Source: Methanofervidicoccus sp. A16 (lineage in GTDB: Archaea > AGJL01 > Methanococci > Methanococcales > Methanococcaceae). Taken from it: DNA of 64,000 nucleotides. Both the position numbers and the translations under genes were made by a program. The notes beneath the pieces are model-generated. The model searched no databases, was not told the origin of the DNA, and saw only the letters and a program-made list of their open reading frames with translations. Shown in pieces: positions 27,092 to 63,094 of this stretch. The DNA lies in NCBI RefSeq assembly GCF_003351865.1, contig NZ_CP022242.1, positions 682,001 to 746,000 on the forward strand. Direction: 5' to 3'. Every line of letters begins with the position of its first letter. The first letter of the stretch is position 1.

Positions 27092-27712
27092 ACCCTAGTT
27101 CCCCCATTAAAGGATAGTTTTAAAGAATAATAAAAATAAAAAATAAAGAAAATATTTAAAAAACAGAAAACCTCTATCACCCCAGATACAAAAATTTTAA
27201 AAAGAAGATTGAAGGAGAACGATCCTCTGTATATCTTTTAAATATAGTGGGTACCAGAATAGGATTTTCTATCTTACCTAAGTGTTCAGAAAGATCCTAG
27301 AATGTTTAATAGTTTTTATATTGAACCCTATTCCCATCAAAAAAAAATTCTGATAAGAATAGCAATAATTATAAAAAATAAAACAATAACAACTATAAAA
27401 ATAAAAGTACAAAAAGAAGTATTAAAATCAAAATAAGAGATAATCTTTCTAGGACGCTCTAAGATACCAAATGGAATTGGAGTAGATCCTTCCTCACAGG
27501 TTGCTATTATATATTATATTGTATAATATTTTATTATAAGGTATCATATTTCAATATTTTTCCAGTCTTTTTTTATTATTCTTATTTTTATTATTCAAAT
27601 CATTACTTTGATGGGAATTAAGGTTTTTATATTGATTATTTTCATTATGATTTTTATTATAATGATTATCTTTTTATTATTCTTTAATTACTATTTGGTG
27701 GGAAACTAAGGT
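27092..27712 (-). mobile_element. Inverted-end element (type 1), interrupted by a second element
   Basis: Ends are ACCCTAGTTCCCCCATTAAA on the left and TTTGGTGGGAAACTAAGGT on the right, which are inverted copies of each other. Reverse-complemented, its core matches elements at 34559, 50419, 59735 and 62620 (for example AGGATC-TTTCTGAACACTTAGG and TATTCTGGTA). A different element (27325-27623) splits it. Without the insertion it would be about 310 bases. No ORF of note lies inside, so it would need a transposase in trans. Confidence 0.65.
27325..27623 (+). mobile_element. Inverted-end element (type 2) nested in the type 1 element
   Basis: It begins ACCCTATTCCCATCAAA and ends TTTGATGGGAATTAAGG, an inverted pair. 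The 12 bases TTTTTATATTGA stand on both sides (27313-27324 and 27624-27635), as a target-site duplication would. The host element's sequence resumes after the right copy, in line with other copies. Internal sequence ending in CACAGGTTGCTATTAT matches the element at 29689. Non-coding. Confidence 0.65.
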
Positions 27713-28731: not shown

Positions 28732-28808
28732 TGGTGCCGTGGGGGTGATTTGAACACCCGACAACTGGATCTTCAGTCCAGCGTTCTCCCAGGCTGAACT
28801 ACCACGGC
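28732..28808 (-). tRNA. tRNA-Phe (GAA)
   Basis: On this strand GCCGTGG pairs with CCACGGC in the acceptor stem; the anticodon stem-loop CTGGACTGAAGATCCAG gives anticodon GAA; the T arm holds GTTCAAATC. CCA is encoded. It is transcribed away from the tRNA-Asn gene, from the shared promoter region at 28852-28884. The genome's Taw3 acts on this tRNA. Confidence 0.97.
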
Positions 28809-28851
28809 TTCCCACGGCTCTATTACACACACCTACTAATATACACAACTG

Positions 28852-28884
28852 ATATATATACTTTTCGCCGAAAAGTTTATATAG
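28852..28884. promoter_or_regulatory. Symmetric divergent promoter for tRNA-Phe and the tRNA cluster
   Basis: A 17-base palindrome ACTTTTCGCCGAAAAGT (28860-28876) is flanked by TATATATA on the left and TTTATATA on the right. Each arm reads CGAAAAGT followed by a TATA box, the form of a strong archaeal BRE-TATA promoter, one in each direction. Start sites would fall near 28830 leftward and 28905 rightward, just ahead of the two tRNA genes. Confidence 0.75.
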
Positions 28885-28928
28885 GAGAAAGTAAATTTTT
28901 ATTGTGCAAACAACATGTAATGTTAAGA

Positions 28929-29004
28929 GCCCCCATAGCTCAGTAGGTAGAGCGACGGACTGTTAATCCGTAGGTCGCAGGTTCGAGTCCTGCTGGGGGC
29001 GCCA
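28929..29004 (+). tRNA. tRNA-Asn (GTT)
   Basis: Acceptor stem GCCCCCA pairs with TGGGGGC; anticodon arm CGGACTGTTAATCCG gives GTT; T arm GCAGGTTCGAGTCCTGC. CCA is encoded. First gene of the rightward tRNA cluster. Confidence 0.97.
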
Positions 29005-29034
29005 AATAACTAGTTTTTATCTTTTTTGTATTGA

Positions 29035-29112
29035 GGGACCGTAGCTCAGCCTGGTCAGAGCACTCGGCTCATAACCGAGGGGTCAAGGGTTCAAATCCCT
29101 TCGGTCCCACCA
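29035..29112 (+). tRNA. tRNA with anticodon CAT (Met, elongator-like; Ile2 not excluded)
   Basis: Acceptor GGGACCG pairs with CGGTCCC; anticodon arm CTCGGCTCATAACCGAG gives CAT; T arm AAGGGTTCAAATCCCTT. CCA is encoded. It lacks the A1 start of archaeal initiators, so it is an elongator Met tRNA or the Ile2 tRNA whose C34 is modified to agmatidine; sequence alone does not decide. Confidence 0.92.
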
Positions 29113-29116
29113 TGGA

Positions 29117-29191
29117 GCCCCAGTGGTGTAGCCCGGCCTATCATGCGGGCCTTTCGAGCCTGCGACTCGGGTTCAAATCCCGACTGGGGCA
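29117..29191 (+). tRNA. tRNA-Glu (TTC)
   Basis: Acceptor GCCCCAG pairs with CTGGGGC; anticodon arm CGGGCCTTTCGAGCCTG gives TTC; T arm CGGGTTCAAATCCCG. Unlike its neighbours it has no encoded CCA: the discriminator A is followed by TATTTT. It starts only four bases after the preceding tRNA's CCA, so the two share one transcript. Confidence 0.95.
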
Positions 29192-29221
29192 TATTTTTTT
29201 TATAAATTATTATTTTATACA

Positions 29222-29309
29222 GCAGGGGTTGTCGAGCCTGGCCAAAGACGCAGGACTTAGAATCCTGTCCCATAGGGGTTCGGGGGTTCAAATCCCCCCC
29301 CCTGCACCA
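29222..29309 (+). tRNA. tRNA-Leu (TAG)
   Basis: Acceptor GCAGGGG pairs with CCCCTGC; anticodon arm CAGGACTTAGAATCCTG gives TAG; a long variable arm (about CCCATAGGGGTT) marks a class II tRNA; T arm GGGGGTTCAAATCCCCC. CCA is encoded. Confidence 0.95.
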
Positions 29310-29329
29310 TTTTTTTTATAGGTATATGT

Positions 29330-29405
29330 GGCCGGGGTGGGGTAGTGGCTATCCTGGGGGACTGTGGATCCCCTGAGCCGGGTTCAATTCCCGGTCCCGG
29401 CCCCA
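29330..29405 (+). tRNA. tRNA-His (GTG)
   Basis: A genomically encoded G-1 precedes the acceptor GCCGGGG, which pairs with TCCCGGC, and faces discriminator C73, as tRNA-His requires. Anticodon arm GGGGACTGTGGATCCCC gives GTG. CCA is encoded. Last in the cluster; a T-run (ATTTTTTTTT) follows and probably ends the transcript. Confidence 0.96.
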
Positions 29406-29688: not shown

Positions 29689-30003
29689 ACCCCAATTCCC
29701 ATCAAAAAATTCTGATAAGAACAATAATTATAATAAAAAAGTTAATTATAATAAAAGTATAAAAGGGAAGGTATAAAATCAAAATAAAAGATAATCTCTT
29801 GGGATACTCCAACATACTATGGAAGTGGAGTAGATCCTCCCTAACAGGTTGCTATTATTAACTTTATTATTTTTTTTATTATCTAAATCTTATTATGATG
29901 GGAATGAAGGTTTATTTTATTATTATTCCTCTTAAGATTTTTATTATTTTTTTATTATGATAATTATTATTCTTCTAATTACAATCTTGATGGGAACTAG
30001 GGT
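29689..30003 (-). mobile_element. Inverted-end element with a 9-base flanking repeat
   Basis: Left end ACCCCAATTCCCATCA and right end TGATGGGAACTAGGGT are inverted copies. TTTCACTAA occurs directly outside on both sides (29680-29688 and 30003-30011, sharing the edge base), as expected of a target-site duplication. An internal copy of the end (TGATGGGAATGAAGGT near 29898) shows a composite make-up: its left two thirds match the type 2 element at 27325, its right third matches the starts of 62411 and 34358. It abuts the 3' end of the DUF447 gene. Confidence 0.65.
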
Positions 30004-34357: not shown

Positions 34358-34558
34358 ACTATGATTGTGATTAGAAGAATAATAAAAATAACAATCATAA
34401 TAAAAAATAATAAAAATCTTAAGAGTAATAACAATAAAATAATTCTGAAGGGATAGAAATAAAAAAGTGAATAACCATAATTCCATTAAAGTAATGATTT
34501 AAATAATAAAAATAATAAAAAAGGACTAGAAAAATATTGAAATATAACACCTTTTAAT
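34358..34558 (+). repeat. Fragments of inverted-end elements, upstream of the 34559 copy
   Basis: 34358-34465 (GATTGTGATTAGAAGAATAA onward, with AAAAATCTTAAGAG) matches the left part of the element at 62411 and, inverted, the right part of 29689. 34474-34550 (ATTCCATTAAAGTAATGATT onward) matches the reverse complement of the end of 27325-27623. The region looks like older, broken copies. Confidence 0.5.
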
Positions 34559-34888
34559 ACCTTAGTTCCCATCAGTAGTGATTAAAGAATAATAAAAAGA
34601 TAATTATTATAATAAAAATCATAATTAAAATAACTAGTATAAAATCTATATATAAAAACTATTAAATACCCTTAGGATCTTTCCGAATCTTTAGATAATA
34701 TTATGAGATCTTATTCTGAATTCCTGTATTAGAAGATATTCAGAGGATCATTCTTCTTCAATCTTCTTTTTAAAATGCTGTATCTGATGATGATAGGAGT
34801 TTTCTGTTTTTTAAACATTTCTTTATTTTTTATTTTTATAATTATTTTTTACTATTTTTTAAACTATTCTTATGATGGGAACTAGAGT
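34559..34888 (+). mobile_element. Inverted-end element (type 1)
   Basis: Begins ACCTTAGTTCCCATCA and ends TGATGGGAACTAGAGT, nearly perfect inverted ends, about 330 bases apart. The core (GGATCTTTCCGAATCTTTAG, TTATTCTGAATTCCTG, TTCTTCTTCAATCTTC) recurs at 50419, 59735, 62620 and, inverted, 27092. No coding capacity. No clear flanking duplication. Confidence 0.65.
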
Positions 34889-49934: not shown

Positions 49935-50369
49935 AGGTATCACGTAACTTTTTAGAGTGGTAGCAAATATGGTAAGAAGCCAGCCTCTTTTTTAATGATT
50001 AGATTATCTTAACCCTCTATTTAAATGATTCAATAACCTTATTTATTTTTATAATTTTTATACTCAATCACATAACATTATTTAAACTTATAATAATCTT
50101 GATTTCCAATAAGATAATAATTAAAATAATAAAAATAATTAAAAAAAAACGATAAGAAACTGTTAAAAAGTGGTAGGTAGTTAGCGAAAATTCTCTCCTC
50201 TCCCTCTACTGTCAAGGATCATCTAAGGAGAGGGTGTTTAATTATTGTTATTATCTCCTTGGAGTACCCTGAGAACTGGAAAAACCCTTAAAGGAGGCAG
50301 ATTTATATCTACAAAAACACTGAGAATTTATTTATAATTTTTGTTATTTTTTTACTTTACTTTATTTTA
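49935..50369. other. AT-rich intergenic region before the 50419 element
   Basis: No gene seen. CTCTCCTCTCCCTCTACT (50198-50215) and AAGGAGAGGGTGTTT (50225-50239) are imperfectly complementary and could form a hairpin, the only GC-richer spot here. Confidence 0.35.
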
Positions 50370-50745
50370 ACCCAGTTTCCATCAAAAATAATAAAAATAA
50401 TAAAAAAGACTGGAAAAAACCTTAGTTTCCATCAGTAGTGATTAAAAGAACGATGAAAATGATAATTGTTATAATAATAAAAATCATAATGAAAATAATC
50501 AGTATAAAATCTATATAAAAACTATTGAATATCTTAAGATCCTTCCGAACCCTTAGGTAAGATAAGGAATCATATTCTGGTATTCACTATATTTAAAAGA
50601 TATTCAGAAGATAATTCTCCTTCACTCTTCTTTTTAAAATGCTGTATCTGATGATGATAGGAGTTTTCTATTTTTTAAACATTTCTTTTTTTTTATTTAT
50701 TATTTTTGTAATTATTAATTGTTATTTTTTAAACTATTATCAAAA
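50370..50745 (+). mobile_element. Inverted-end element (type 1), right end missing, with a fragment before it
   Basis: The element proper starts at 50419 with ACCTTAGTTTCCATCAGTAG and keeps the family core (GATCCTTCCGAACCCTTAGG; TATTCTGGTATTCAC; CTTCACTCTTCTTTTTAAAA). The right inverted end is lost: AAACTATTATCAAAAG runs straight to the arfB stop codon at 50750. The 49 bases before it (ACCCAGTTTCCATCA onward) match a type 2 end, the same arrangement as at 34474-34559. Confidence 0.6.
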
Positions 50746-59734: not shown

Positions 59735-60073
59735 ACCTTAGTTCCCACCAAGTAGTGATTAAAAGAACGATGAAAATGATAATCATTATAATAAAAATCA
59801 TGATTAAAATAATCAGTATAAAATCTATATTAAAATCATTAAATATCCTAAGATCTTTCCGGAACCCTTAGATAAGATAGAAAATCCTATTCTGGTATTC
59901 ACTATACTAGAAAGTTTACAGAGGACATTCTCCTTCAAACTTCTTTTTAAAATTTTTGCACCTGGGATAACAGAAGTTTTTATTTTAAAACTTTTTCTTA
60001 TTTTTTTTATTTTTATTATTTTTATAATTATTCTTATTATTTTTTAAACTATTCTTTTGATGGGAACGAGAGT
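59735..60073 (+). mobile_element. Inverted-end element (type 1) between trpA and trpE
   Basis: Begins ACCTTAGTTCCCACCA, ends TTGATGGGAACGAGAGT, about 339 bases, with the shared core (AGATCTTTCCGGAACCCTTAG; CTATTCTGGTATTCACTAT). ATTATTA stands on both sides (59728-59734 and 60074-60080), a possible target-site duplication, although AT-rich. Non-coding. Confidence 0.65.
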
Positions 60074-62244: not shown

Positions 62245-62540
62245 ATAAAATTAAGTAATTAAAAAAGATTTTGAAAACAAAAACTTCTATAACAGATATA
62301 TAAAATTTTAAAAGTATAAACAGATATACCTCGATATATCTACTTCTGAATGTTAAAGGAAGGATGATCCTCTGGAATATCGTTTCATTTTCACTGATTA
62401 TTTTATATTAACCCTAGTTCCTATCAAGATTGTGATTAAAAAATAATAAAAATGATTATCATAAAAAAAATAATAAAAATCTTAAGAGGAATAATAATAA
62501 AATTAATAAAATTCTGATAGATGTAAAAAATAAAATAACC

Positions 62541-62583
62541 CTTTCTTCCTATATGGGATACTGGATAAACAAGTAAGATTTCT
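62541..62583 (+). repeat. Short dispersed repeat copy
   Basis: TTCTTCCTATATGGGATACT then ACTGGATAAACAAGTAAGAT, close to the copy at 35005. Here it lies inside the interrupted 62411 element. Confidence 0.45.
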
Positions 62584-62619
62584 TTTTAATTTTTTAGATA
62601 TTATTATTTTATTTTTATA

Positions 62620-62913
62620 ACCTTAGTTCCCATCAAAGTGATAATTAAAAGAATAATAAAAAGATAATTATTATATTTAAAAATCATAATGAAAATAATT
62701 AATATAAAAACCATATAAATATCCTTAGGATCTTTCTGAACACTTAGGTAAGATAGGAGATCTTATTCTGGTATCCACTATATTAAAAGGTATTTAGAGG
62801 ATCATTCCCCTCCAATCTTCTTTTTAAAATGTTATATCTGAGATATTTTTCTTTATTATTTTTATAATTATTTTTATTATTCTTAAAACTACCCTTTTGA
62901 TAGGAAGTAGGGT
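62620..62913 (+). mobile_element. Inverted-end element (type 1), nested in 62411-62974
   Basis: Begins ACCTTAGTTCCCATCAAAGT and ends TTTTGATAGGAAGTAGGGT, with the type 1 core (AGGATCTTTCTGAACACTTA; TTATTCTGGTATCCACTAT). TTTTTAT occurs at both edges (62612-62618 and 62913-62919), a weak sign of target duplication. Confidence 0.6.
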
Positions 62914-63094
62914 TTTTATTAATAAATAATTATTATTTTTATTTTCTTTTAATTACAAGTGATGGGGACTAAGGTTTTAATAATAAGAATATAATTTTTT
63001 TTTAAGAAATAATATAAAAATCAAAGAATGATAAAAATGATTCTTATTTTTAAGAGTTAAATCATATCCTATATAAATTAACAGGTGAATAAAA

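Follow-up and report, generated by a model that had tools for sequence, protein, structure and literature searches.

A nested MITE in Methanofervidicoccus sp. A16 and its large family with IS982-type ends

The nested element and its surroundings

The window analysed here (i.e. the whole stretch of 64,000 nucleotides, positions 682001-746000 of the closed 1,504,113-bp genome of Methanofervidicoccus sp. A16) harbors at 27092-27712 an inverted-end element that is interrupted by a related one of 300 bp (27325-27624), the latter having the 11-bp repeat TTTTATATTGA on both flanks. With the boundaries of the inner element set by the rest of its family (ends ACC...GGT, exact flanking repeats), the forward strand reads as follows: the left arm of an outer MITE of type B (27092-27324, terminal repeat ACCCTAGTTCCC), closing with the left copy of the target duplication (27314-27324); the inner MITE of type A (27325-27624, ends ACCCTATTCCCATC / GATGGGAATTAAGGT); the right copy of the duplication (27625-27635); and the right arm of the outer MITE (27636-27712, ends GGTGGGAAACTAAGGT). 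The initial annotation had described an insert of 299 bases and a duplication of 12; the insert with its inverted ends, and the repeat on its flanks, were recovered at these positions, and the sizes were corrected to 300 and 11 bp. The 12th base of the duplication is ambiguous, since T 27313 equals the inner element's own terminal T 27624. There are three exact occurrences of TTTTTATATTGA in the window, including the two flanks of the insert, and occurrences at no more than one mismatch number 12, versus 2.2 expected from shuffling. The outer element shows no clean target duplication in its own flanks (TATTTTAT / TATTTCAA). Near the nested element the only Rfam families found were tRNAs and tRNA-like matches, and the predicted folding is strong (z -3.1 and -4.3) because of the inverted arms.

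Related elements are found further along the window, all on the forward strand. A type A element with an extra C-type tail (29689-30003) is flanked by an exact duplication of 8 bp (TTCACTAA); a cluster of six tRNA genes (28735-29402) lies between it and the nested element. A MITE cluster at 34366-34888 is composed of a C/A remnant and a B-type element (34559-34888), and forms an intergenic block that is absent in the relative G004, as the flanking genes are there only ~40 bp apart (versus ~780 bp here); the region is thus empty in G004, without giving an empty site exact to the base. Beyond these lie an A-end/B-type mosaic (50369-50740), a B-type element (59735-60073) with the duplication ATTATTA, and a C-type end with a B-type element (62411-62975, the B-type part at 62620-62913), which carries a single unit of the target word and is the window's best match to an empty site.

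A dense non-coding family

Types A and B belong to one large non-coding family with a common terminal repeat (ACCCTARTTCCCATCA), whose 17-base end ACCCTARTTCCCATCAA was matched 386 times at no more than two mismatches in 1.5 Mb, versus 0 times by a reversed-pattern control. About 46 convergent end pairs in the first 284 kb (the part sampled for this purpose) have exact flanking repeats of 7-11 bp, against a background of 5% per random end pair. The duplications of the family have their mode at 8-9 bp and are mostly of 8-10 bp (exact cases 7-11), which places the 11 bp of the window junction at the long end of the range. At least three element types possess these ends (A, the inner element of the window; B, the outer one; and C, seen in the tail of 29689-30003 and in others), and they are often nested or mosaic. 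Type A measures ~220-300 bp and type B ~330-350 bp, and neither contains a transposase gene. Counts of copies (as distinct from counts of ends) were taken from stretches around known ends and are therefore lower bounds: ~45 distinct full or partial copies of type A were listed, to which an HMM search adds more, and 93 copies of the type B left arm were found in 465 kb sampled. In the same 465 kb, end pairs with a duplication and a spacing of no more than 4 kb enclosed neither a transposase-like ORF nor an autonomous element, and no match was obtained for the B element in plasmid records or for the exact end in viral contigs. The elements are short, bounded by terminal inverted repeats, associated with target duplications and present in high copy number at unrelated sites, as is characteristic of MITEs. 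The nested MITE of the window is genuine; its kind is ordinary and its density unusual. A separate observation concerns a multi-MITE mosaic of 740-750 bp that is present twice at 94% identity (449833-450576 and 859502-860243 of the genome), with an identical B left arm.

Recurrence of the junction and state of the target word

Nested and composite MITEs are a general phenomenon, in which one MITE comes to lie inside another and the composite is able to spread; the present case differs in that a single junction recurs at seven sites of a 1.5-Mb archaeal genome. The left A-in-B junction of the window is found at seven genomic loci (a total reached with the further composites at 117980 and 968332). 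Six of the seven can be read on both sides, and all of these have A in identical orientation relative to B; the seventh (at 118 kb) differs on its right side. Five composites align over the entire element, with TTTTTATATTGA flanking A on both sides (of the right-hand units, one has the form TTTTTACATTGA and another follows additional T-rich bases), and their outer flanks are unrelated to one another. A sister composite at genome positions 1322195-1322817 has a perfect outer duplication of its own (TTTTTAAATAA). Another shared junction, with a C-type element lying inside B (ACATTAACCTGG or closely similar forms), was observed at five loci. The initial annotation had taken the nested structure as strong evidence for actual movement, which holds insofar as MITE-like elements have moved by transposition; since the same junction stands at seven loci, the one in the window does not in itself document a recent move at this locus.

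These observations are best accounted for by one nesting event, after which the composite spread. We consider it likely that a single insertion of an A-type element into a B-type element duplicated the 11 bp TTTTATATTGA, and that the composite so formed, whose outer ends are still valid as transposon ends, then multiplied by transposition to at least seven places, perhaps aided by gene conversion between the many copies. A target hot spot, with separate insertions of A elements at one and the same site in several B copies, is in our estimation improbable. It would account for the occurrence at 903166 of a B-type end behind this word as well (TATTTGTATATTGA|ACCCCTAG), and for the unconstrained trees of the B left arm, on which the composites are scattered. 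However, the composites readable on two sides have one A orientation and essentially the same duplication of 11-12 bp (elsewhere in the family it varies from 7 to 11 bp), and their A parts cluster beyond what shuffled labels give: five of the seven fall in one 94% clade (tree of 101 rows), and the fewest changes needed (5) were matched by 1 of 500 label shuffles. Moreover, a single clade of composites is not rejected, either for A (p 0.12) or for the B left arm (p 0.43).

A second alternative is that the junction spread mainly by gene conversion or recombination among B copies and not by transposition of the composite, which we regard as possible, though less probable than spread by transposition. 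The copies are mosaics, the junction state and the left-arm phylogeny look uncoupled, and the composite at 118 kb has an altered right side, all of which would be in line with conversion. Against it stands the composite at 1322195-1322817 with its own perfect outer duplication, although conversion into an existing B element could mimic such an arrangement.

B copies in which A is absent bear on the origin of the flanking repeat. The copy at 62620 presents the unoccupied site TTTTTATATTAATTATTTTC, and is collinear with the window's outer element once the insert and one repeat are removed, and the unoccupied site, as TTTTTATATTGATTATTTTC or in a closely similar form, is also seen in 29 type B copies classed as single-unit (465 kb sampled). 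The copies at 34559, 50419 and 59735, on the other hand, contain 12-14 extra bases at the target site, corresponding to a doubled word (TTTTTATATAGA-TTTTATACTGA), so that the collinearity initially proposed for 34559, 59735 and 62620 applies to the last (and to the 29 single-unit copies) and is not exact for the other two. A doubled word without any insert was encountered in 32 of the 93 outer-type copies sampled. Such doubling in uninterrupted copies had been named beforehand as an observation that could refute the initial interpretation; we judge that it does not do so, since in the window composite the two units do not differ, and both match the single-unit copies exactly.

The doubled copies are nevertheless what would be expected if the flanking repeat were an old imperfect tandem repeat of B, between whose units A inserted with no target duplication. 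This explanation appears highly improbable to us, as the units of the doubled, uninterrupted copies differ from each other (TTTTTATATAGA / TTTTATACTGA), whereas those of most composites are alike and equal to the single-unit copies, and as duplications of similar size flank unrelated members of the family. The doubled form is old, being present in the G001 ortholog of one B copy, and may have arisen either as a footprint of excision or by a separate tandem duplication. That the 32 doubled copies are footprints of excised A elements, with both copies of the duplication retained, seems to us rather unlikely; were it true, IS982-type transposition in archaea could be of the cut-and-paste kind with empty sites left unrepaired, and uninserted, inserted and excised states would coexist in one genome.

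The mobilising enzyme and the age of the family

The terminal repeat of the MITEs also bounds transposase genes in four relatives (G014, G019, G034 and G006), and the initial view that the mobilising enzyme lies elsewhere was borne out as regards the type of enzyme, which is that of these IS982 elements with matching ends. G014 possesses two copies of 987 bp, one of them with an 8-bp duplication (TAATTATC); in G034 two IS982 copies have 260 codons open; and G006, a member of the same genus, carries an IS982 element with the MITE family's terminal repeat. The family was identified with NCBIfam NF033520 (E 7e-28 and 3e-30; the copies tested are broken and for this reason score under the curated cut-off), and was found in 10 of the 36 genomes of the order searched. 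According to the available text of PMC7335449, IS982 elements begin with 5'-AC and have direct repeats whose length varies (0 to 10 bp); hits in two Methanococcales (Methanotorris formicicus and Methanocaldococcus bathoardescens) are reported there as well. The duplication of the G014 copy (8 bp) is compatible with this published range, and that of the window (11 bp) lies slightly above it. Taken by their ends, the MITEs resemble IS982 elements such as ISPfu3 and ISTli1 (as these are presented in the same text) in 5'-AC termini, short terminal inverted repeats and variable duplications, and the Methanococcales members examined share the terminal repeat of the MITEs; the insertion sequences differ in being autonomous, ~1 kb long and transposase-encoding, whereas the MITEs are non-coding and of ~220-350 bp.

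A search of the organism's own genome for a transposase with matching terminal repeats gave no intact copy, and a decayed IS982 remnant at 218141-218364, ending in ACCCTAGTTCTCATTA. The MITE interiors have no convincing homology to IS982 beyond ~20 terminal bases; a true IS982 deletion derivative was seen only in G006 (295 bp, retaining the two IS982 ends and part of the transposase). The common ends and the duplication size suggest that an IS982-family DDE transposase mobilised the MITEs in trans, which we hold to be likely together with the single nested insertion and the multiplication of the composite. As the own genome yielded no intact IS982, it is from the ends that mobilisation in trans is inferred, and judging from these sequences the enzyme would have done the moving and since been lost from this genome.

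Other candidate mobilisers were considered: neither IS4/IS5-type (PF01609) nor IS256-type (PF00872) transposases had a match in the own genome, and an IS6-like element, inserted into or beside MITEs, is ruled out by its ends (GGACCTGTCCAC). The latter, which we take to belong to IS6 from a reading of its protein, is present in three copies of 97-99.7% identity over ~700 bp and looks recently active; its copies (595695-596403, 1059748-1060454 and 1117388-1118096), in or beside MITEs, have the ends GGACCTGTCCACAT... and a 212-aa transposase. An internally deleted IS6-like copy was also noted in G007 (contig C5, locus L231, 829-1208), where it adjoins an end of the MITE/IS982 type.

The closest described counterpart is MITECca01, an IS982-derived MITE of Cardinium cOegib (PMC9769881), which has in common with the methanogen MITEs that it is short, non-coding, of high copy number, equipped with IS982-family ends and often located inside mobile DNA. 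MITECca01, however, resides in a bacterial endosymbiont with an intact parental IS, and its copies are rarely interrupted (PMC9769881), whereas the methanogen MITEs are commonly nested or composite and have a decayed parent.

The movement of these MITEs is mostly old, since the copies of the B left arm average ~82% identity to each other, the closest pair in the identity scan reaches 97.4% over 341 bp, and one insertion is orthologous in a second species. This B insertion (at ~419.6 kb) sits at the same place in G001 and therefore predates the split from it. Ends at no more than one mismatch number 229 in the own genome, 30 in G001, 25 in G007 and 8 in G006, with nearly none in the other genomes; the nearest named relatives by the nifH-like gene are Methanothermococcus isolates. 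The two genes flanking the nested locus of the window were not neighbours in the relatives checked, and at 393500-394300 of the own genome the comparison with G004 concerned an intergenic region only, which was unalignable. Also in G004 (contig C2, locus L223, 2244-2967), coding-region repeats ~117 bp apart match others located near 268-270 kb in the own genome.

In the genome of this thermophilic methanogen the MITEs of one family are thus unusually dense (386 recognisable ends per 1.5 Mb). Their ends connect them to IS982, a family that has received little study, and their likely source enzyme has decayed here and is still carried in copies by relatives. The recurrence of the window's junction further implies that one neat nested junction by itself is not evidence of recent local movement, and that such a junction should first be looked for genome-wide.
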